Made by a program: the position numbers and the translations under genes | In this document: positions 1-10,496 of the stretch, in pieces | Position numbering within the stretch: position 1 is the first letter of the stretch | Layout: the number at the start of each line of letters is the position of its first letter | Source of the DNA: an uncultured Anaerolineales bacterium | Lineage (GTDB): Bacteria > Chloroflexota > Anaerolineae > Anaerolineales > UBA11657 | Direction of reading: 5' to 3' | NCBI GenBank assembly: GCA_913040765.1 | Contig: CAJWIA010000035.1 | Location: 1-10,496, forward strand | Length of the DNA: 10,496 nt | Notes under the pieces: generated by a model | Told to the model about the DNA's origin: nothing | The model's input: only the letters and a program-made list of their open reading frames with translations | Databases searched by the model: none

Positions 1-94
1 ATGCATTGAGTATCCACCAAGTTGTAGCTCGTAGGATATTTATTTCGACAATTCTCGTTAGAGATTTAGTAAGCATAAATGTATCATCTTGCAC
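1..94 (-). CDS. possible start of a further operon gene, cut by the window edge
   Basis: After the stop of the 86-residue gene, a minus-strand frame opens at GTG (92-94) or ATG (74-76) and stays open to base 1. From the ATG it reads MLTKSLTRIVEINILRATTW and then W-I-L-N-A. It is basic and then hydrophobic/aromatic, which would suit a membrane-associated or amphipathic N-terminus. No good Shine-Dalgarno sequence precedes either start. The 24-42 nt gap to the upstream gene is compatible with the same operon. With only about 30 codons visible, chance openness is quite possible, and no function can be named. Confidence 0.35.
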   Translation of the reverse strand, partial: MQDDTFMLTKSLTRIVEINILRATTWWILNA

Positions 95-118
95 AATACG
101 TTTTAGTAAAATTTTTCA

Positions 119-379
119 TTATTTGGATAAAGTCATTTTTAATACTTGACCTTTGTTGTTAGCCATTACGCGTACTATTTTATGCATAGTATGTCCACCT
201 GGCATCGAGACTACACCTTTGTAGGTAAGCAGGTACGTAGAAGTATGATTTTGTTTAGATAATGTTTTAGTGTTTGGAATAGATTGTTTAGTCACGCTTG
301 GTATAACCCCTTTGAGTTCAGGGAATTTCCTATATACGTTTGCAGATATTGATTTGACGTTACCTGATCTCAAAGTCAT
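119..379 (-). CDS. small basic beta-rich protein, free-standing copy of the caspase-fold protein's C-terminal domain
   Basis: This 86-residue protein has no signal peptide or membrane segment. It begins 17 nt after the ftsZ-like gene and has the clearest ribosome binding site in the window (AGGA, 7 nt before ATG), which supports it as a real gene. Residues 15-31 read V-x3-FP-x8-V-x-K. Residues 48-54 (TYLLTYK) look like a beta strand. Residues 67-86 look like a beta hairpin with an NNKGQ turn, ending KMTLSK. The same elements in the same order end the 932-residue TPR/C25 protein two genes upstream: V855, P860, V869-x-K871, strand 896-901, and NKDGQ-x2-K to the terminus. I infer a small domain family in which this member lacks the protease. 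I do not recognise a named family. It could be an adaptor, inhibitor or substrate for its neighbours. Confidence 0.8.
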   Translation of the reverse strand: MTLRSGNVKSISANVYRKFPELKGVIPSVTKQSIPNTKTLSKQNHTSTYLLTYKGVVSMPGGHTMHKIVRVMANNKGQVLKMTLSK

Positions 380-386
380 TTGTATG

Positions 387-390
387 TCCT
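387..390 (-). promoter_or_regulatory. ribosome binding site for the 86-residue gene
   Basis: The transcript between the ftsZ-like stop and the next ATG reads ACAGGACATACAAATG, placing AGGA 7 nt before the start. The other visible gene starts in this window lack so clear a Shine-Dalgarno sequence. The site therefore fixes the start of the small gene and suggests independent re-initiation. Confidence 0.6.
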
Positions 391-396
391 GTTTAG

Positions 397-1626
397 TTAG
401 GTTTTCCTATGTTCTATCGAATCCCTTATGCGTTGTCTGCGAAGAAAAGCTGGTGTATCCAAATTATACGGTGAGGGACTGTATGGAAAAGATACTTGGG
501 TGCTGCGTGATGGGCCATTCTCACCAAATTCTGTTTTAATGGTATTTTTTGTTTTTAGGTTTACTATTTTAGAATTGGTGGTAGCAAATGAATGTCTAAA
601 TGGTATCTCACCAATGACGTTCTCTAAAGAGTGTCCTCCCACTCCAGTAGCGAGGACAATAATTTGCACACGATCTTGTAATTGTTCTTCTACTGTTACT
701 CCTAAAGTTAGTTGTGAATTAGGACCGAGAGCTGTGCGGATTTCTTCAACTGCGCGCTCTATTTCATTCATAGGTAGACTGTAGCCACCCGTAAAATGTA
801 CTAGTAATCCTGTCGCGTAGTTCATTCCAGAAATATCTTGCAAAGGATGATGTAGTGCGGAGCGCACTGCAGTTATGGTTGCGTTCTTACCTTTACCATG
901 ACCAATCGCTAGTACAGCACCTCCTGATTCATGTAGAAGTTCGCGTATATCTGCAAAATCAACATTTATCAATCCGGTTTTTAACACAACCTCTGTAATT
1001 GATTGAATACCTTGTCTCAGTATATCATCAGCCATTCTAAATGCTACATCTAGTGTGACATCTTTAGGAACAATTTGGAGTAGACGTTCGTTAGGAACTG
1101 TTATAAGAGTGTCACAGTGGCTCTGCAATACTGTTATACCCTGCATAGCATTATGGTACCGATAGGTCCCTTCAAAGTTGAATGGCATTGTCACGACTGC
1201 GACTGTGATGATATCTAAATCTCTAGCCAATTCGGCTACTACAGGGGCAGCTCCGGTTCCAGTTCCACCTCCCATACCACAAGTTATGAACAATATGTCA
1301 GCATTTTCTATACTTTCCGATAGATTGCTGAGGCTCTCATAAGCAGCTGTTTCTCCGATTTGCGGATCTCCCCCAGCTCCATGTCCATTGGTAAACTGTT
1401 CTCCTAAAAGTAATTTGGTGGGGGCTTCATTCTTAGTCAAAGCTTGTCGGTCTGTATTGGCTGCGAGGAAGTCAACTCCATCTATTCCGAACTGTATCAT
1501 CCGATCAACAGCATTGCTGCCCGCACCTCCTAGGCCAATGACTTTAATAACTGTAGTTTTATCATCTTGGTAGTCTATTGGGTATTTAATACTTGGATCA
1601 CTTTGTGCAGATTTATGTATATTCAT
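397..1626 (-). CDS. ftsZ: FtsZ-type tubulin-like GTPase, probably a divergent paralogue
   Basis: The 409-residue product is a near full-length bacterial FtsZ, a cytoplasmic GTPase that polymerises into filaments and normally builds the division ring. Residues 27-43 form the first glycine loop ([14 protein letters not shown]). The tubulin signature GGGTGTG is at 119-125. FEG plus R156 corresponds to the guanosine-contacting Glu/Arg pair. The T7 catalytic loop NVDFAD is intact at 221-226, so GTP hydrolysis on assembly is expected. A variable linker follows (about 345-387), then [11 protein letters not shown] (389-399), which matches the conserved C-terminal peptide that binds FtsA, SepF, ZipA or similar partners. 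Unusual residues are NTDRQAL (Arg where Ala is usual) in the T2 loop, TNGHGAG (His for Leu) in the T3 loop, and VTMPF for VT[RK]PF. The gene starts 3 nt after the TIM-barrel gene stop, so it is probably translationally coupled. No ftsA, ftsQ or mur genes are adjacent. It may be an accessory FtsZ rather than the main one. FtsZ family certain; paralogue status inferred. Confidence 0.95.
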
Positions 1627-1629
1627 GGT

Positions 1630-2979
1630 CTACATCATTGCCTTGTTTGATAACATTTCTGATTTTCTAGAGATGACCTTCAAATCTTCACTGTTGATTC
1701 TATGAATTCTGCATCCAGCTTGTTTTAATTTAGATTCCACATCAAGACTGATTTCATGATGATTAGCTACTATTGTCACTGTTTCGGATAATAGTGCGGC
1801 ATCTATCGAGTATCCACAACATGCATTATGCTCTTGTACTAATGGCCCAGCAATATTCCAGTGCCATTCAGATAATCCCCAGTCAAAACGTGGTAGCAAA
1901 ATATAATGTTTCAATGTTTTCTGAGTGTTCAGAGAGTTTATGTATTCTCGACCAAGCGTTATCATCGAAGGATGCGTCTTAGTGATTATGTTCTGTAATT
2001 CTGTTGCTGCTGGTGTTATATCTCCTTCAGTTGATAACCAAGCGTCATCTAAAGCTGGATGATCCTCGTCAGCGCATAGTAACCAAAAGTTAACGTTTAA
2101 TAGATAGTCAGGCAAGTGTCCCGAGAGCATTGCGTTTGCAATGCTTGTATTGCAAGTTGTGTGCCAAGCGATATCCTTATTCTGCTTGGTGGTGTTATTT
2201 ATCTGAGTCTGGCGAGCTCCACCAGCGATCATTAGCATCGGTCGTATGTTTCCCAAAACGTTTGCCATTATTTCTGCATACCAGTCAAATGACCAAAACC
2301 CAGTTTGATCCTGTGATCCTGGAGGTGTACGATATGGCTGAGAGGCAGGCCAGGTCTTATTGCCGCCTCTTCCCCAATCGGCTGCATGTCCACCTGCAAA
2401 TGAATATATACCCAATACAAGTTTGTCGATTATTTCTTGGTGCTGTCTATTAACAATTGCCTCCAGGACAGCACCAAGAAATGAGGTATCCCAATATATA
2501 CCTCCTTGGTAGAGCGGAGTTAGTACTGCCGGTAAGCCGCATTCTATTTGTAATTGTGCAATGGGTATCCAGCAATCCACAAAACGTTCAACAAGACGTT
2601 TATGTTCGAAATGGCCCGTTTTCCATGCCATGCGCATATTAGGGCAATCAAATACGCATATGTATTTGATGCCCCAGTTAGCATAAGCATGCATCGTACT
2701 TTTGATTACATCAATATCTAGTGGCTTGATGTAATCAGTTTTTATATGGATTATTGGCTCAATACCTGATTGTACTAGTGGTGACAGAAAGGTTTCGGGT
2801 ATAGATCTGTTAGTAGAACTTACTAGTGTTAACCAACTTGCCCCTAAATTTTGAAGTTTAGGCAACCAGTAATCTAGGTCTGTAGACCGGTAGTGTAATT
2901 CGTCAGGGTAGTAATGAAAGCCAATCCCAGTGTTATAGGTGGTTGTATGTTTAGTGCTGTGTTGTATTTGAGTCTGCAT
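1630..2979 (-). CDS. glycoside-hydrolase-like TIM-barrel protein with a C-terminal alpha/beta extension
   Basis: The 449-residue protein has no signal peptide, so it is probably cytoplasmic. Regularly spaced hydrophobic strands suggest a (beta/alpha)8 barrel of the glycoside hydrolase type: GIGFHYYP (18-25), ASWLTLV (47-53), EPIIHIK (74-80), KYICVFD (105-111), PAVLTPLYQGG (150-160), LVLGIYSFAGG (187-197), RPMLMIAGGAR (246-256) and VNFWLLCAD (296-304). Residues about 355-430 form a further beta-alpha-beta unit with several Trp residues (DWGLSEWHWN). The strand-4 and strand-7 ends, where clan GH-A enzymes carry Asn-Glu and Glu, read FDCPN and AGGARQ here. The usual acid/base pair is therefore not visible. 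It may bind a glycan or polymer, or use other residues. Its ATG directly abuts the TAA of the caspase-fold gene and its TAG lies 3 nt before the ftsZ-like ATG, a tightly coupled position. The fold call is moderately secure; the activity is unknown. Confidence 0.75.
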   Translation of the reverse strand: MQTQIQHSTKHTTTYNTGIGFHYYPDELHYRSTDLDYWLPKLQNLGASWLTLVSSTNRSIPETFLSPLVQSGIEPIIHIKTDYIKPLDIDVIKSTMHAYANWGIKYICVFDCPNMRMAWKTGHFEHKRLVERFVDCWIPIAQLQIECGLPAVLTPLYQGGIYWDTSFLGAVLEAIVNRQHQEIIDKLVLGIYSFAGGHAADWGRGGNKTWPASQPYRTPPGSQDQTGFWSFDWYAEIMANVLGNIRPMLMIAGGARQTQINNTTKQNKDIAWHTTCNTSIANAMLSGHLPDYLLNVNFWLLCADEDHPALDDAWLSTEGDITPAATELQNIITKTHPSMITLGREYINSLNTQKTLKHYILLPRFDWGLSEWHWNIAGPLVQEHNACCGYSIDAALLSETVTIVANHHEISLDVESKLKQAGCRIHRINSEDLKVISRKSEMLSNKAMM

Positions 2980-5778
2980 TTATCTAGATACTGCAAATTT
3001 GATTATCTGCCCATCTTTATTGACGGTAGCATGTGCATATTGTTGTTTTTTATAGTTAGCGAAATCAAGCGTTCGCTTCGTAGAATATACGAAATGCTCT
3101 AAATCAGAAGAGATCGTTTTACTGTGATTTATATCTGCGGTTGTAGACCCAGACACCAACTCAGTTTTCCGAACGGCGAATTCCCCAGTTTCCATACCTG
3201 GCAAATAGTGTGAGACCATTGCTCTCACCTGTTGTAATGCCTCTGGAGTGCCCAACGCTTTGGCACAAGCATTGTGGCTCTTGGCGCATGCAGCGTGTAA
3301 ATTGGCAACCGGAATTGGCTTTGATTTTGGTAGGGATATAGTTGGGGTGGGTAACATTCTTGGATCTCGGAGTAGTGGGTCCCCATACAACACAAAACTA
3401 AGCAATGCTTTTTGATCCTCTCCGTCGAGGAAACCCTGGCGCGATTGCATTGTTTGCGCTAATCCCATTTTAGATCGTCTTAACGCTTCACCAATTTGTA
3501 AGCCTCCTCTAAGGTGGTGCCAGAAGAATCGTCCTACTAGGTCGGCTCCTACCAGTGGAGTCCCAACAGCACCATATGCTATACGAGTAGAACCTACAAC
3601 TGCACGGCTACCTGATTGAAGAAAGTGAAGACACAACGCATCTTCAGTTGACTGTTTATTGATGATATTAGCTCCATAGCAAGCCTCAGTGAAAACTATA
3701 GATGGTGCTTGACCGTGTATTATGTCAGATGGCCTTAATGCTACCGGGTATTGGGGTGCTTGGCCATCAAATGATATGCTTTCTCCAAACCATTCGGATG
3801 TATCTTCTAGACCATGTAGATTGCAATAGAGCAAATCCGAAATTTGAGATAGACGCTCGATAGGGATATTGCTTGCTGCCATTGGTGGACTGCTCAGTAA
3901 ATCTTTCCTACGTCCAATCACGTCAAAAACTTCTAGAGAAGCATCTAGCCATATATCTGCGCTATAGCCTAAATTGTGTTGTTTCGAAGCTCCTGGTTGC
4001 CAAGACGGTATAAGCCATCTTAGCCATTTGAAAAATAGTGGAATTTGTATTGTGGGTGCATTGTGGGCATCAATAGTGCTCTTGATTAGATTTGCCAATA
4101 TGTTCGGATTGTCGCCGGTATGAGATGGAAGTCTGCCAATTGGCCATTTTGGAACGAAATAGTTTTCGTCATCTGTTCCGTAGGGATTGTCAGATAGCAC
4201 ATCTTTATCATGATCGTCAGTTGGATTGGGTAGACGATGGAATGGGACAATGTTATCCCCACCAATCAGTAGTGTCGAACCTATCTGCTTATTATTGTTA
4301 TTCAGTTTAGAACTTATCGCTTTTAGCACATTCTTTATAGCAGTTGCATCCTGTCCATTTATAGCTGATAGTTGGAATGATGAAATACTTGCCGATACAT
4401 CCGGTAATATCACCAAGCACTCTCTACCTGTTCTTTTAGTAGTTGTTTCCGCCAATAATCTCGTTAAAGTTAATATTTTCTCGGCTCCACTAGTGCCAAA
4501 CTGATCGACGAGAGGGCGTGCGCAGGTGATAATGATGTGTACGAGATCATATTTTGCTAGCTTGTTGCTATTCGGATATTGTTTGGAGTTGTTAGAATGT
4601 GAGTTTGTAGTGACTGGATCAATAGCATTCTGTATTTCAACAAGGTCCTCATTGCTATTAGTAATATTTGTATCATCAGATGCTACATTGTAGGTGTTTA
4701 GTGTTGGTTTCTGAGTGTTGTCAGGCAGGTTAGAGTCGGCTTCCAATTTATTAGGCACAAGAAATTGCTGACTGTCTGTACTTTCATTGTTGTCGGCAGC
4801 GAATGGATTAATATCATATTGTTTAGTTGGATCTACTGCACTGCCACCAAAATGATTGATTTTTGTTTCATTTAAGCTTCTTGTGAGGCTATTATTGTGT
4901 GTTTGTGTAGAGTTTTGCTCTTTTTGTGAATTTATAACAACATCATGGTTGTTTACTGGTAAGTTTATGGTATCTGGAAGAGTTATATCTCCGATTGCTA
5001 TATTATGACCGTCACCAATTTGATTAATGCCTAGTGTTGAAGCCACATGTGTAGGAATTGGAGCAGGTTGTTCGATCAATGGTTCGGGAGGCCAAATAGG
5101 ACGGTAGGCATGATCATCATGCCAGTAACGGTCCACCACTTCTCGAGCTGGATCTAGGTGAACTACATCGTGTAGTAGTTCTACTCCTCGTGTGTAATCT
5201 CCTGTTCGCAGTAGGGATTCTGCAAGACATAGGTTGATTGCTATGCATTGTGGCCATCTGTCATAGAACCCTTGGGCTAAAGGAAATGCTAGCTCTGCTT
5301 TACCTGAAAACCAATGACTCTTAATTAACAATAAAGCCGGAAGTGGGGAATTAGGGTTAGACTGAAGTGCATTCTCCGCTGCCTTGCTGGCATTATCCCA
5401 TTGTAGGTTTGTAATGGCGGTGTAACTTTCACGTGTGGCTACTAGCCAGGGTATGCGTGGTAGGGATTGACCCAGTAACATACGTGTCAATCCCTCAGAC
5501 AAAGAATGAACCTCATTTTCACCAATGTCGCGTGCAATGTTAGCAAGTGTCTCATGCACAGACACTTGCTCAGGATCGACCACAGCCAATTTTTTTAGTA
5601 TTGTGAAGGCTTCATGCTCGTTGTTTTCAGATATGAGGGACTTTGATAGTAATAGGTTAACCGTAAAATCCTCTGGCCATACCTGTAACCATGCGCGCGA
5701 TAATTTACGTGCATAGTCAGGTCTGAGGGCGCTTAATGATGCTTCAATAAGCCGGATGAGTTGCGTGCGGTTTAACAC
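2980..5778 (-). CDS. TPR protein with C25 (gingipain-like) caspase-fold peptidase domain
   Basis: The 932-residue protein has no signal peptide, unlike secreted gingipains. Residues about 20-215 are TPR-like helical repeats. A Pro-rich stretch (228-242) and a long Asn/Ser/Thr-rich linker (about 284-405) lead to the peptidase domain (about 408-805). That domain has family C25 landmarks in order: LLIGGDNIVPF (503-513), DDENYFVPKWPIGRLP (536-551), the catalytic His-Gly in CNLHG (His655), the catalytic Cys in TEACYGA (Cys700), GSTRIAYG (729-736) and LYGDPLLR (797-804). His and Cys are both present, so activity is expected. Residues 828-841 carry a tandem H-x-A-C-A-K repeat, and 855-932 form a small domain shared with the 86-residue protein. 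Translation starts at GTG. An in-frame TAG lies 10 codons upstream and no ATG intervenes, so GTG is the best start despite no Shine-Dalgarno. Its substrate may be a neighbour, by inference only. A CHAT assignment is possible but fits less well. Confidence 0.9.
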   Translation of the reverse strand: MLNRTQLIRLIEASLSALRPDYARKLSRAWLQVWPEDFTVNLLLSKSLISENNEHEAFTILKKLAVVDPEQVSVHETLANIARDIGENEVHSLSEGLTRMLLGQSLPRIPWLVATRESYTAITNLQWDNASKAAENALQSNPNSPLPALLLIKSHWFSGKAELAFPLAQGFYDRWPQCIAINLCLAESLLRTGDYTRGVELLHDVVHLDPAREVVDRYWHDDHAYRPIWPPEPLIEQPAPIPTHVASTLGINQIGDGHNIAIGDITLPDTINLPVNNHDVVINSQKEQNSTQTHNNSLTRSLNETKINHFGGSAVDPTKQYDINPFAADNNESTDSQQFLVPNKLEADSNLPDNTQKPTLNTYNVASDDTNITNSNEDLVEIQNAIDPVTTNSHSNNSKQYPNSNKLAKYDLVHIIITCARPLVDQFGTSGAEKILTLTRLLAETTTKRTGRECLVILPDVSASISSFQLSAINGQDATAIKNVLKAISSKLNNNNKQIGSTLLIGGDNIVPFHRLPNPTDDHDKDVLSDNPYGTDDENYFVPKWPIGRLPSHTGDNPNILANLIKSTIDAHNAPTIQIPLFFKWLRWLIPSWQPGASKQHNLGYSADIWLDASLEVFDVIGRRKDLLSSPPMAASNIPIERLSQISDLLYCNLHGLEDTSEWFGESISFDGQAPQYPVALRPSDIIHGQAPSIVFTEACYGANIINKQSTEDALCLHFLQSGSRAVVGSTRIAYGAVGTPLVGADLVGRFFWHHLRGGLQIGEALRRSKMGLAQTMQSRQGFLDGEDQKALLSFVLYGDPLLRDPRMLPTPTISLPKSKPIPVANLHAACAKSHNACAKALGTPEALQQVRAMVSHYLPGMETGEFAVRKTELVSGSTTADINHSKTISSDLEHFVYSTKRTLDFANYKKQQYAHATVNKDGQIIKFAVSR
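2983..3216 (-). other. C-terminal domain of the caspase-fold protein, shared with the 86-residue protein
   Basis: Residues 855-932 contain V855-x3-LP, then V869-x-K871 at the same ungapped spacing as V15-x3-FP and V29-x-K31 of the small protein. A strand (896-901, FVYSTK) aligns with YLLTYK, and N920-x2-GQ-x2-K-x3-SR aligns with N74-x2-GQ-x2-K-x3-SK at both extreme C-termini. About seven residues of loop and one of hairpin length differ. The domain lies outside the C25 fold. Confidence 0.6.
4564..4929 (-). other. Asn/Ser/Thr-rich low-complexity linker inside the caspase-fold protein
   Basis: Residues about 284-405 are dominated by Asn, Ser, Thr, Gln and Asp with almost no hydrophobic clusters. 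This predicts a disordered tether between the TPR helices and the peptidase domain. The reading frame is intact. No exact DNA tandem repeat is apparent, so this looks like low-complexity drift rather than recent slippage. Confidence 0.65.
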
Positions 5779-5887
5779 ACATATACTTGTGCAAGGATCG
5801 TGCCACTATATGTAATTTGTACCTAGGATTATGTATGGACTAACTTGTTGTGTGTATTGATTAGATGCTTACCAAAGAGAAGTAAGA
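5779..5887 (-). other. intergenic gap between the giant TPR gene and the caspase-fold gene
   Basis: This 109-nt stretch is the only sizeable gap in the cluster. It contains a weak 5-bp inverted repeat (CTTAC/GTAAG, 5868-5872 with 5882-5886) just after the TPR stop. There is no following T-run, so it is not a convincing terminator. A CATAAT element (5828-5833) has only a poor match to a -35 box upstream. A separate promoter for the four downstream genes is possible but not demonstrated. No Shine-Dalgarno precedes the GTG. Confidence 0.4.
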
Positions 5888-8800
5888 TTAGGCAGTAACA
5901 TCACCACTTATGAGACCAAGTGCAGATACTGCGGCAAGTTGTCTATGTGCCGAGACATTCTGCGGATCAATCTCAACTGATTTTTTGAACATCAACATTG
6001 CTTCTGAATAATCCTTAAGTTGTTTCAAGGCTAATCCAGCATTGAAATACAAACTGGCATTTGTAGGTGTAATTTTTATGGAACTTGAATAGGCTTTGTA
6101 TGCTCTGTCAAATTGCTTTCGAGCTACCCAAAGGTTTCCTAGTGTCTCCTGTAGTTTGCCATTCTCCTGATCATCACTCTGTAGTTTTGATGCATTGTCT
6201 AAGTGGATCATTGCTTGATCCAGCTTGTTGTGTTCAATACATAACTCAGCAATGCGTAAATGATAGTTGAAGTGCAGGGGTGCTAACTCTATAGCTTTCG
6301 TAAAAGCATTTGTGCTGGCTTCCAAATCGCCAGATTGATCGTACAGTTCTCCTAGTAGTTCCCAGGCTTCGTGGCTCTCACTAAGTTCTTCAATTTCTGA
6401 CTCAAGAACAGATAGTGCTTGGTCATATCTGGATGCGGCACTTAGAAGTCTAGCTTTTTCTAAAATGACAGGTCCTGGATCATTAGTGTTTTCTATGGCA
6501 TGATCAATTGATACTAGAGCGTTACTAGTGTCACCTTTTGCAGCATATAACTCTGCTAGAACTGTTAATGCACTACTGTTGTCAGGATCTTGTTTGAGTA
6601 CTTTTAGAGCATACGATTCTGATTTATCTGTATCTTCGAGAAGCATAGCGGATTCTAATACTCCTACCAGAGGTTCAATATCTCCTGGGAAGAGTTTTGT
6701 GGCTTGTTCGTATCGTGTCATTGCTGCTGAAACATCTCCTAGTTGCATGCATACTTTACCAGCTTCAATTAGTAAATCTGCTTCAACATGACCGTTAGTT
6801 AAAGCTGCGTCATATTGTTCTCGAGCAGCCGCAGCATCTCCATCAGCTGAATAGGCCCGTGCTAGTTCTATTTGATAGTTGATAACAATACTTTCTTCTA
6901 GTTGTTGTTCTGAAGACAGTTGTACTGCTTTATGGAAGTGGGATAATGCAGCGTCTGTTTCACCTTGTTCTCGGCACAATGTCCCTAATTGGAAGTGCCA
7001 TGACGAGTGTTCTGGCTCTATTTGTAGTGCTCGTTCTATAGCAGTTCTAGCATCCTCTATATTACCTAATAGGATATTTATCTTTCCTAGCATGTATTGT
7101 GCTATAGCATTATAAGGATCTATTGAAATGGCTCGTTCTATAGATTGGACCTGACCAGCATAATCTTTCCGGATTGAGTAAATGTTGCTAATTTCTAGCA
7201 GAGCATTTGTGTTGTCAGGATATCGATCCAGTACCCATCGAGCTGCTTGTTCTGCTTTATCTAACTGGCCAGATATTCTATATGAGGCAGCTAAGGCGCA
7301 ATAGATTTCGGCGCTAGCTGTTTGACTTGCGGCTAGCTCTAATGCGGGAATAGCTGTGCCCATGTCTCCAACAAGAGATTGAGCTCTGGCCAGCCATTCT
7401 TGCATTACCATTGCATTAGATTCTAGTTTGCCCCATCGTTCTAAAGCAATTGCAATGAGTTTCCGTTCTTCGTCAGATCTTAGATCGTTTCTCTCATACA
7501 ATCTTCTGCGTTCTTGAGACCGCACTAGTTCTGTTGAGATAGACATAAGTGTGTCGGAATCTGCGTCAATGGAGTCTATTGCGCGTGCCAAGGATTTTAA
7601 TGCACTTTTGCGTCTTTCACTCTGTAGTAGTACTATTCCAGCGTTAGTTAGCACGTCAATGTCAGTAGGTGCATGAGCTAGCGCTTTCTCAGCTTCCTTA
7701 GCTGCAGTTGAACTATTTGCAGTTAATGATAATACACGTGCTAACATGGCTCTATATATTCCTTGTTCTGGAATCAGATCAAGTGAAACTTTGAAGGCTG
7801 ACAAAGCAGCTTCATAATTCTCTAGTTGAAAATGTAAAAGTCCAGCACGATAGGATGCATCTGCTGACTCAAAACAGTCTGCGCCAATATTATTTAGGTG
7901 TCTTTTAGCGCGATTTTGTTCCCCGATTGCCATAGCTGCCTCAGCAGCGCCTAGCACAGCATTTGTGTTTTCTGAATCAACTTCAATTGCACTTTCAAAA
8001 GCTGTACTGGCTTCCTTGTATCGGTCCTGAACCATAAGGACCTCCCCTAATTTTTTCTGTAATGTTGAATTCTGGGGGTCTTCAAGTAGCGCTTTTTGCC
8101 AAAGTGCAGTGGCCTTAGCTTTCTGTTTTTGCTCAATCAGAGAGTCACCAGCTCGTGCTAAATATGATGCTCGTAATGATTCACTTGAGTTGGCGTCACT
8201 CTTTGATAGATCGGCAGCGCGGAGAAATGTATCATGAGCATGCTGATATTTCTGTGATTTGTATTGAGACTCTCCGAGCATTTCTAGTACACCTAGGTCC
8301 TCGGGATCAATATTAATTGCCTGGTGCAGGATGTCTAATGCTTCTTTTTCGTCTCCAAGCATAAGAAGACAATCAGCCATTTGTTTGTGAAGTTTGGCAT
8401 TTTGCGGTTCAAGTGCTAACGCCTTGCCCAGGGCATTTTTTGCTTCTGACCATCGTTCTGAATTTTGATAATGTTTAGATAAATCACTGTGAATACTTGC
8501 ATCGTCTGGATCAAGTGCACTTGCTCGATGTAGAAGTTCAATAGCGCGTTGTTGATCTCCGGATTTTGATGACACTAGAGCCGTTTCCTTGATAGATATC
8601 GTGTCGTCAGGCGTAAGATTGATAACTCGTTCTAAGTAAGGTAGTGCATCGGACCACATTTCTGCGAGCATATATGCTTTGGATGCTGCTTTTTGTAGTT
8701 CTAAATCAGTCGTATGTTTTGTAGCAGCTGGAACTAACGTTGCGATTGCATCTTTGTGATTGTCTAGTGCCAGATAGCAGGCACCAATCTTTGCTGATAA

Positions 8801-10496
8801 ACTTTCATCATCAGGCGTTATGTTAATTGCTCGTTGATATATTCTGAGGGCACTGTTCCAATCCGAAGTACTCTCTAGAACACTTCCATATGTGGTTAGT
8901 AGCTTGACGTCGTCAGTATGATTATCTACTAGGGGTTCTAGGTTGACGCGAGCAACTTCGTATTCTTGCAATGCAAGAGCTAATTCGCCTGTGCGTTGAG
9001 ACAGGCTACTAGAGTTCAAGCCTGATGCTTGTGCTCTTTGTAAAGAATTCAGTGCTGAGCTTTCATCACCAATTTCTTGGTAAGCCAATCCAAGATCATT
9101 CCATACCGTTCCGTCTGCTGGAGAAACTTCAGACGCTCGTTTTAGCGCATCTACTGCTCCTAAATAATTTTTTTCAGCAATCAATGCTTTTCCGTATTGA
9201 TGGTGTATATGTCCATCTGTTGGTTGAATAATTGAAGCTTCTTTCAGTGACTCTATTGCCATTTCACTATCCTGCATAGTTAACTGTAGCTCTCCGATTT
9301 CTGCCAATAACATACCTCTACTGTTTTTATCATCTTCATCAATGTTGGCATAACCCGACTTTAACGCACTATATGCTCTATCGTATTCTCCACGAAGTTT
9401 GTGGAAGGAAGCAATGGCGCTCCATGGTTCGGGTGATTTAGGCGCTATTTGAGTAGCCTTCTGGAAATGTTGGCTCCCCAGTTCAGTTTCGCCCAGCTGT
9501 AATAAGGATTGTGCTAGCACAGTGTGAGCCATTCCTAATGTGGCCCGATCGTGATCAGATGCATTTTCGTCAATTTCGTTATTGGACAGAAGATTGTTGC
9601 ATTGATCACGTGCCTTTTCTGGTTTGCCGGAGTTGAGCGCACACCTGGCAAATTGAAGTTGGATGTTTGTGTCGTCGGGACTAATATTGAGCGCCTTCTC
9701 CCAATGCGTGAGTGCTTCTGCATAATTGGATTGGATTACAGTGTCTTTGTAAGTGAGAGCTTCTGCTAAAGCTATTCTATTCTCAGATGATTGAGTTTCA
9801 AGTGCTACTGCTTCAAATGCAGTTTGACGCGCATCTTGTATGCGACCGCAGGCTAATAAATGTTTTGATTGCTGAACCAATAAATTAGCAGGGGATTTTG
9901 TAATTGGTATAGCTTTCTCAAGTGCCAGAGAAGCATCTTGATGTTCGCCAGCTGACCCCAAAATATTGGCCAATTCTGCTAACTCAGATGAGGAATCGAT
10001 GGAGTCGATAATATCAACTGCAGTTTCAGAGGCGAGGACTATATCTCCATTTGCGTAATATGCCCGAGCAAGAGCAAGCTGACTACGGGGAGATTTGTAG
10101 TCGATATGTGATAGGATCTCCAGTGCATCACCTGGCATATCAAGTGCAATTTTGGCTTCAGCGGTGTATACAGATAATTCAGTTAAATCACCACCAAAAT
10201 CTTTGGCTTGCTCAAATGCAGCAAGCGCACTAACAGCATCACCTTGTTCAAGTGCGGCTTTGCCAAGACGTATAGCTAATTTGTTTGTGAGGGACTGAGA
10301 AGCTTGTAGGGTGTCAGCTAATTTGTCGAGTGCATATTCGGAGTCAGTTTCTAGTGCTAACAGGCTTTCCATCGTGTTTTTGGCGATAGAATCTGAAAAA
10401 GTTGACAGTTCTTCAGTGTTTTGTGTTAGATTAGGTGTTTCTAGATGGCTGTCGCTTACTAAACTACGTAGTTCAGGATCTGAGGAGTTTTTTAGA
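5888..10496 (-). CDS. giant TPR solenoid protein, 5' end outside the window
   Basis: The frame ends at TAA (5888-5890) and is open to the right edge, giving at least 1535 codons. The first in-window Met (10370-10372) has no Shine-Dalgarno sequence. The 41 codons before it are free of stops and of ATG, so the true start lies beyond the window. Numbering from that Met, about 40 TPR units of roughly 34 residues can be counted by eye, with the usual small residue/Gly/Ala spacing and closing D-P or T-P (for example GTVWNDLGLAYQEIGDESSA; ASLYFNAGLALKQLKDYSEA). No membrane segment or enzymatic motif is seen. A charged insert (about 949-971, with ERRRLYERND) interrupts the repeats about two-thirds along. 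TPR superhelices are protein-binding scaffolds, so it may assemble the neighbouring products. It is followed by the caspase-fold gene on the same strand after 109 nt. It could have an additional N-terminal domain that is not visible here. Confidence 0.92.
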   Translation of the reverse strand, partial: LKNSSDPELRSLVSDSHLETPNLTQNTEELSTFSDSIAKNTMESLLALETDSEYALDKLADTLQASQSLTNKLAIRLGKAALEQGDAVSALAAFEQAKDFGGDLTELSVYTAEAKIALDMPGDALEILSHIDYKSPRSQLALARAYYANGDIVLASETAVDIIDSIDSSSELAELANILGSAGEHQDASLALEKAIPITKSPANLLVQQSKHLLACGRIQDARQTAFEAVALETQSSENRIALAEALTYKDTVIQSNYAEALTHWEKALNISPDDTNIQLQFARCALNSGKPEKARDQCNNLLSNNEIDENASDHDRATLGMAHTVLAQSLLQLGETELGSQHFQKATQIAPKSPEPWSAIASFHKLRGEYDRAYSALKSGYANIDEDDKNSRGMLLAEIGELQLTMQDSEMAIESLKEASIIQPTDGHIHHQYGKALIAEKNYLGAVDALKRASEVSPADGTVWNDLGLAYQEIGDESSALNSLQRAQASGLNSSSLSQRTGELALALQEYEVARVNLEPLVDNHTDDVKLLTTYGSVLESTSDWNSALRIYQRAINITPDDESLSAKIGACYLALDNHKDAIATLVPAATKHTTDLELQKAASKAYMLAEMWSDALPYLERVINLTPDDTISIKETALVSSKSGDQQRAIELLHRASALDPDDASIHSDLSKHYQNSERWSEAKNALGKALALEPQNAKLHKQMADCLLMLGDEKEALDILHQAINIDPEDLGVLEMLGESQYKSQKYQHAHDTFLRAADLSKSDANSSESLRASYLARAGDSLIEQKQKAKATALWQKALLEDPQNSTLQKKLGEVLMVQDRYKEASTAFESAIEVDSENTNAVLGAAEAAMAIGEQNRAKRHLNNIGADCFESADASYRAGLLHFQLENYEAALSAFKVSLDLIPEQGIYRAMLARVLSLTANSSTAAKEAEKALAHAPTDIDVLTNAGIVLLQSERRKSALKSLARAIDSIDADSDTLMSISTELVRSQERRRLYERNDLRSDEERKLIAIALERWGKLESNAMVMQEWLARAQSLVGDMGTAIPALELAASQTASAEIYCALAASYRISGQLDKAEQAARWVLDRYPDNTNALLEISNIYSIRKDYAGQVQSIERAISIDPYNAIAQYMLGKINILLGNIEDARTAIERALQIEPEHSSWHFQLGTLCREQGETDAALSHFHKAVQLSSEQQLEESIVINYQIELARAYSADGDAAAAREQYDAALTNGHVEADLLIEAGKVCMQLGDVSAAMTRYEQATKLFPGDIEPLVGVLESAMLLEDTDKSESYALKVLKQDPDNSSALTVLAELYAAKGDTSNALVSIDHAIENTNDPGPVILEKARLLSAASRYDQALSVLESEIEELSESHEAWELLGELYDQSGDLEASTNAFTKAIELAPLHFNYHLRIAELCIEHNKLDQAMIHLDNASKLQSDDQENGKLQETLGNLWVARKQFDRAYKAYSSSIKITPTNASLYFNAGLALKQLKDYSEAMLMFKKSVEIDPQNVSAHRQLAAVSALGLISGDVTA

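Follow-up and report, generated by a model that had tools for sequence, protein, structure and literature searches.

We find that the five genes on a 10,496-nt stretch of DNA from an uncultured Anaerolineales bacterium very probably form a co-inherited system with shared sigma-54 promoters. The stretch (the window) is the whole of contig CAJWIA010000035.1 (C35) of a 1.6 Mb, 77% complete metagenome-assembled genome (MAG), which by matching loci is close to the Anaerolineales bins UBA3499, UBA3001 and UBA1136, and it encodes a giant TPR scaffold, a protease of peptidase family C25, a TIM-barrel protein, a second FtsZ (FtsZ2) and a small protein. Comparison with relatives resolves the linkage into a TPR scaffold–C25 protease module and a TIM–FtsZ2–small protein module, both co-inherited, and judging by sequence these modules and sigma-54 are present together and missing together. 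The pattern points to an undescribed control of cell division or of the cell envelope, in which the parts belong to known families and the combination is new.

Overall, 81 of the 101 genomes, among them the window's own, have the C25 protein, as do 56 of the 69 good genomes (G, L, f and g below denote genomes, loci, families and genera within the sampled set). Two or more FtsZ matches, a count that can include fragments, occurred in 75 of 81 C25-positive versus 2 of 20 C25-negative genomes (54/56 versus 1/13 among good genomes; Fisher 6e-13, a statistic that ignores relatedness). Sigma-54 followed the same division, with matches over the cut-off in 77/81 versus 4/20 genomes (good genomes, 55/56 versus 2/13). 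No rpoN over the cut-off was found in four C25-positive genomes (G008, G038, G049 and the window's own 77% complete MAG, G000). The four C25-negative genomes with sigma-54 were G071, whose contig begins just before the TIM gene; G087, which has TIM–FtsZ2–small protein; G050, which is 76% complete; and G012. The last was not taken as a case of independent co-loss, because its contig breaks inside the TPR gene and the missing C25, TIM and FtsZ2 may reflect an assembly gap. Clear absences were confined to f12 (nine genomes), genera g36 and g41 of f13 (four) and f6 (two), and each of these genomes had no C25, no sigma-54 over the cut-off and one FtsZ match, with a sigma-54 match just below the cut-off in G045. 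G052 also lacks the system but is only 59% complete, so its absence says little.

The sequence-only reading of the window had described five consecutive genes on one strand, three of whose junctions measure 0, 3 and 17 nt, encoding a tubulin-like GTPase, a clan CD protease with TPRs, a TIM-barrel protein, a TPR scaffold and a small protein. All five open reading frames (ORFs) indeed lie on the minus strand with gaps of 17, 3, 0 and 109 nt: the small protein (119..379, 86 aa), FtsZ2 (397..1626, 409 aa), the TIM-barrel protein (1630..2979, 449 aa), the protease (2980..5778, 932 aa) and the C-terminal 1535 aa of the scaffold (5888..10495), whose ORF is open at the contig end with its N-terminus beyond. 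The same linkage is kept through Anaerolineales-type Chloroflexota MAGs and is not confined to one genome. The TIM gene stands directly upstream of FtsZ2 in all 20 FtsZ2 loci read (22 loci, less L166 with no FtsZ ORF and L182, which carries FtsZ1), and an FtsZ ORF directly precedes the small-protein gene in 23 of the 23 small genes found. These two arrangements and the wide occurrence of C25 place the gene linkage beyond chance. The earlier idea of a single five-gene unit holds for co-inheritance and gives way, as regards layout, to the two modules, which are neighbours in several families and separated in others. C25 and TIM–FtsZ2 are adjacent, sometimes with an extra ORF intervening, in loci read from f1–f5, f11 and G018 of f10; the modules are apart in f7, f8, f9, f13, f14 and G031, and in f15 TIM–FtsZ2 lies upstream of TPR–C25.

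Because the contig ends within the scaffold gene, the genes upstream of it are visible in relatives only. The fullest of these (for example, L104 and L108) carry, in order, rpoN, a PAS histidine kinase, an NtrC-like sigma-54 response regulator, a membrane protein of about 110 aa, the giant TPR (about 1,650–1,925 aa in relatives within the order), C25, TIM, FtsZ2, the small protein, a membrane protein of about 65 aa and a protein of about 245 aa. Pfam matches in the cluster include the kinase, the regulator and the sigma-54 DNA-binding domain, and the rpoN, kinase and regulator genes stand directly before the scaffold in some relatives and elsewhere in others. The sigma-54 response regulator at L104:16708-17886 is without a Pfam-recognisable DNA-binding domain after its AAA lid. 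In genus g3 of f1 (L066, L068) C25–TIM–FtsZ2 occurs without the scaffold, and in G047 (L084) the kinase–regulator genes and a 102-aa gene come straight before C25, the giant TPR gene being absent from that place; the scaffold may be dispensable there or located elsewhere.

Position, rather than abundance, ties sigma-54 to these genes. The window contains two exact sigma-54 sites on the minus strand, compared with a mean of 0.07 in shuffles (0/200 shuffles had two): TGGCACGATCCTTGC at 5791..5805, which lies 12 nt upstream of the protease start codon, and TGGCACACAACTTGC at 2152..2166, which is inside the TIM gene and about 525 nt upstream of the FtsZ2 start. The first site keeps its position before C25 in L065, L068, L105, L106 and L107, and the second recurs with the same sequence in L065, L105 and L107. 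Counting exact sites within −150 to +60 of mechanically called ORF starts in loci of the order, we found them before TIM in 22/41 cases, the 110-aa gene that opens the scaffold operon in 16/32, C25 in 8/57, FtsZ2 in 7/41 and the giant TPR in 1/44, whereas other genes had 2/1090, one of them a truncated C25 gene; genes inside an operon need no sigma-54 site of their own. With a looser scan the figures were 24/34 and 17/19, compared with about 0.1 on average for mononucleotide-shuffled sequence. Exact promoters before the scaffold operon, protease, TIM or FtsZ2 were also present where the modules lie far apart. Across genomes, TGGCAYRNNNNTTGC occurred 10–27 times in each of 13 system genomes (reversed-pattern control, 0–9), and also 17, 2 and 19 times in the system-free G020, G057 and G202 (controls 4, 2 and 3); raw site counts are therefore not evidence, and position before these genes is. 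In the window, an Rfam scan gave no match and a sigma-70 promoter scan of positions 1–3200 gave chance level.

The rpoN gene itself has an exact site about 1.0 kb before the DNA-binding domain, near the start, in 9 of 10 genomes with judgeable lists (the exception being G069). PF00158 passed the cut-off in all 21 genomes and 14 controls, and only matches at E<1e-40 were taken as activators, the rest being treated as AAA+ cross-hits. By this threshold 11 of 12 system genomes have one strong activator and G022 has two; G012 and G211, the latter from outside the order, have one each, and none was found in G020, G057, G202, G068, G117, G355 or G256, a set that includes four genomes lacking the system. 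The strong activator lies about 3 kb from rpoN in the 12 system genomes and in G012. An exact site of sigma-54 type is also conserved in f9 genomes (L126:8673-8687 and L127:10563-10577); it lies right after FtsZ1 and is oriented towards that gene.

FtsZ2 is, by sequence comparison, an old paralogue of the ftsA-linked FtsZ1. The window's copy matches the Tubulin GTPase domain and the FtsZ C-terminal domain over curated cut-offs (Pfam; NCBIfam TIGR00065), in line with the tubulin-like GTPase read from it earlier. A midpoint-rooted FastTree phylogeny of 71 sequences splits 26 FtsZ1 from 45 FtsZ2; the two sides of the split have support of 1.0 and 0.73. In most of the loci that could be read, FtsZ1 comes after ddl, ftsQ and ftsA (names by eye; some loci are mis-called or cut), and FtsZ2 is not in the dcw cluster next to ftsA. 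The GTP-binding loop is intact in the window's copy, and its GGGTGTG motif is unchanged across FtsZ2 except for Ser at one position in 5/45; the C-terminal peptide, PAFLRR in the window, matches P[AT][FY][LM]R[RKQ] in all 27 FtsZ2 C-termini inspected. The final Asp of the T7 loop behaves differently: it is D in 26/26 FtsZ1, compared with H in 28, N in 8, D in 7 and A in 2 of the 45 FtsZ2, so that 38/45 have lost the catalytic residue. Parsimony places N at the FtsZ2 root with eight changes inside FtsZ2. In Escherichia coli FtsZ, D212A is reported to leave 7% GTPase activity, which marks the T7 Asp as catalytic (PMC8142252). The T7 Asp is one of 16 FtsZ1-invariant columns kept in fewer than a quarter of FtsZ2, the other fifteen having diverged likewise. 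FtsZ2 thus appears from its motifs to keep GTP binding and its C-terminal anchor peptide while usually lacking the T7 Asp, and it is likely to be altered in GTP hydrolysis in most lineages. Two apparent FtsZ2–small protein fusions (L080_6 and L089_8) were discarded, being a run-on across masked bases and a wrong-frame ORF.

These data also bear on whether FtsZ2 is simply a redundant duplicate, a spare division FtsZ with unrelated passenger genes as neighbours. That it is a true FtsZ with both Pfam domains would fit, as would the few bacteria described with a second ftsZ outside dcw (PMC9871819). We nonetheless disfavour this as very improbable, given the fixed positions of the TIM and small genes around FtsZ2 (20/20 and 23/23), the shared sigma-54 promoters, the joint absence with C25 and rpoN, the loss of one catalytic residue and an evolutionary divergence well above that of FtsZ1 (tree distances 2.3-fold larger, in 120/120 pairs from 16 genomes).

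The 932-aa protein is assigned, from sequence and a structural model, to peptidase family C25 with a predicted gingipain fold, consistent with the TPR-plus-clan-CD-protease architecture first read from the window. It comprises N-terminal TPRs (Pfam), a disordered linker, the protease domain and a C-terminal beta domain ending in Ser-Arg. The Pfam C25 domain was not matched in the window's own copy; an orthologue exceeded the PF01364 cut-off (41 bits versus 23), and precomputed assignments give this domain to at least 120 of 800 homologues, all of those listed. Across an alignment of 100 sequences, His655 and Cys700 never vary. An AlphaFold model built from 100 sequences has a mean pLDDT of 79.9, with the linker (253–406) below 50, and the best PDB matches of its protease fold are gingipains, which are proteases that cleave at Arg/Lys. 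Searches of solved structures by sequence and by profile returned no C25 chain, the 39 profile matches being TPR-type chains. The terminal S[RK] is kept in 96/100 aligned homologues and in 64/70 locus proteases that reach the model end. It recurs in 23/23 small proteins (Ser-Lys in the window), and the small protein is related to the protease C-terminal domain: hhalign gave 94% probability (E 1e-7 for one comparison), and kinship at E<0.01 was seen in 36/70 protease tails, whereas the only matches among 2064 other tails were two ORFs running into the small gene itself. BLASTP of the small protein against the whole protease found nothing, and the kinship is seen by profiles only.

A scaffold-held protease linked to a filament protein would also suit regulated cell death or phage defence, in which a signal frees the TPR-held protease, the Z ring is cut and the cell is killed. 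We consider this improbable, because the genes are spread order-wide through nearly all sampled families and carry sigma-54 promoters, and because no PADLOC family was matched at E 0.01 by any of the four window proteins scanned (all except the TPR scaffold).

The TIM-barrel protein, whose fold agreed with the earlier description when the 449-aa product was compared with known structures, is nearest to GH39/PslG and had no Pfam or NCBIfam match. In its alignment, column 112 is Glu in 18/104 sequences and columns 295–300 are never Glu; with the clan GH-A catalytic positions, expected at the ends of strands 4 and 7 and judged by strand order, thus apparently unconserved, it is probably not an active glycosidase. 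Its C-terminal stretch resembles S-layer or cell-wall-binding chains weakly (E 6e-4 for the whole sequence, best single stretch only 0.11). Among distant TIM relatives, regions at L227:2345-6427 and L228:9332-11476 are fused to N-acetylmuramoyl-L-alanine amidase domains, and L225:6255-7646 and L231:8850-10034 lie inside flagellar gene clusters (neighbours by eye), where wall-cutting enzymes are usual. Both groups are distant and were excluded from the members of the system. Sigma-54-type sites also stand about 60–145 nt before a conserved 365-aa protein (L265:1562-1576, L266:611-625 and L268:545-559; three of four f9 stretches viewed, not L267, in three genomes of one f9 genus). This protein has a SnoaL_2 domain in the two copies scanned and an N-terminal part that is TIM-barrel-like by eye, and is likely a further regulon member.

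Such features would suit an envelope programme, in which FtsZ2, acting as a scaffold independent of division, positions the envelope synthesis that sigma-54 induces (S-layer, sheath, holdfast or surface polymer), with TIM, the LytR-CpsA-Psr (LCP)-like membrane protein and the protease processing envelope precursors. The fold of TIM and its weak wall-binding match agree with this, as do the amidase domains in 2 of 7 distant TIM relatives scanned, the site before the SnoaL-domain protein and the description, in PMC3162934, of sigma-54 as a controller of the bacterial exterior. Four of the downstream membrane proteins of about 245 aa were scanned, and LCP matches appeared in one at E 0.009 and in another at 0.3, both below the cut-off; this and the divisome-type C-terminal peptide kept by FtsZ2 count against the envelope programme, which we regard as possible but rather doubtful.

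The components differ in apparent age. In a 400-genome draw of the phylum, strong TIM matches (E<1e-60) occurred in 20 genomes, 9 of them outside the order; C25 was present in 19 of these 20, and eleven more genomes have C25 without strong TIM. Outside the order, C25 and TIM adjoin in at least six loci (all the legible ones), and all nine TIM-bearing genomes have one FtsZ match. TPR–C25–TIM therefore looks older, with FtsZ2 and the small protein joining within this order. In G218, from another order of the class, a degenerate FtsZ-family gene (L263:7103-8365) lies right after TPR–C25, with the motif GLSGDTGGG and the T7 Asp absent (by eye).

As an overall explanation we tentatively favour, at somewhat less than even confidence, a mechanism that we infer from the parts: a programme switched by sigma-54, in which an FtsZ that hydrolyses GTP poorly and a latent Arg/Lys-type protease serve to remodel or arrest the Z ring. 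The regulon would make a second Z-ring component together with its own latent protease. FtsZ2 would join FtsZ1 filaments, or form its own at the same FtsA-marked membrane site, and GTP turnover would slow, since the T7 loop would be supplied by a subunit incapable of catalysis, leaving the ring frozen or stabilised. In the alpha/beta-tubulin pair one subunit type is non-catalytic, and the proposed FtsZ1/FtsZ2 asymmetry may be likened to it. The protease would sit on the TPR scaffold in latent form, possibly because a Ser-Arg/Lys tail, from its own C-terminal domain or the small protein, occupies an Arg/Lys S1 pocket in the manner of a product. Once activated, it would cut a ring or envelope protein, so that the arrest ends or a special division completes. 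The TIM protein is probably a sensor that binds a sugar or a precursor of the cell wall. A more speculative version, to which we give less credence, is that the whole order keeps sigma-54 mainly to switch on two things: a hydrolysis-defective FtsZ2, pairing asymmetrically with normal FtsZ in an alpha/beta-tubulin-like manner, and a cytoplasmic protease of gingipain type, bound to the scaffold and kept latent by its own Ser-Arg/Lys tail. During a developmental or stress division, an alternative Z ring would thereby be assembled, maintained and finally released through proteolysis.

Several observations weigh against the Z-ring programme. The window's FtsZ2, whose T7 loop reads INVDFADIR, and its genus keep the T7 Asp, as do 7/45 overall, so loss of hydrolysis alone cannot account for every lineage. 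The protease C-terminal tail is a beta strand in the predicted model, which speaks against a tail in the pocket. Outside the order, TPR–C25(–TIM) occurs with a single FtsZ and with no exact sigma-54 sites at the starts (0/8 C25, 0/6 TIM), so the protease must do something even where FtsZ2 is lacking. Of the 77 genomes having both rpoN and C25, only 33 carry the two on one contig, no more than 20 kb apart in 26 of them (by eye, in fragmented assemblies), and in f9 the distance is about 30–36 kb. Exact sites are present in f12 genomes without sigma-54, and both FtsZ1 starts with such a site (2/25) belong to these genomes; there, TGGCAY-N5-TTGC lies 12–13 nt before the single FtsZ1 start (L138:8261-8275 and L139:8578-8592), perhaps as a relic or by chance. 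Finally, PMC3162934 found cell division not over-represented near sigma-54 and argues for control of the cell exterior, which either favours the envelope programme or marks this system as unusual.

If the Z-ring programme is correct, it would provide a natural FtsZ pair with one partner mostly without its hydrolysis-loop residue, and hence a testable case of how filament asymmetry evolves. It would also supply a candidate for a step in division or envelope growth that a protease controls, testable with purified proteins, and it would give sigma-54 a function in the Chloroflexi, only some of which had it in a 2011 survey (PMC3162934).

Searches of open-licence full texts brought up no described system in which a GTPase of the tubulin family and a clan CD protease are paired under sigma-54. 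Several known systems are partly alike. Plastids and archaea have FtsZ1/FtsZ2 pairs, likewise two functionally diverged paralogues per cell or organelle, and these generally keep the T7 catalytic Asp; here, in contrast, the second gene sits in a sigma-54-marked protease cluster and has mostly lost it. The Bipolaricuta-type second ftsZ also lies outside dcw, in some cases in conserved loci, and the accessible text, which reports CetZ-like proteins in Dehalococcoidia, mentions neither a link to a protease, TIM or sigma-54 nor a second FtsZ of this kind in Anaerolineae (PMC9871819). Compared with GH39 enzymes and PslG, the TIM protein does not conserve the acid/base and nucleophile Glu positions. 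The comparison with separase and the TPR-CHAT of type III-E CRISPR offered in the sequence-only reading stands for architecture, an alpha-solenoid with a clan CD protease, and fails for the fold, in which gingipains match well above CHAT and C50. From the gingipains RgpB and Kgp (C25), in turn, this protease differs in its N-terminal TPR solenoid, its C-terminal beta domain, its sigma-54 promoter and, within this order, its linkage to FtsZ.

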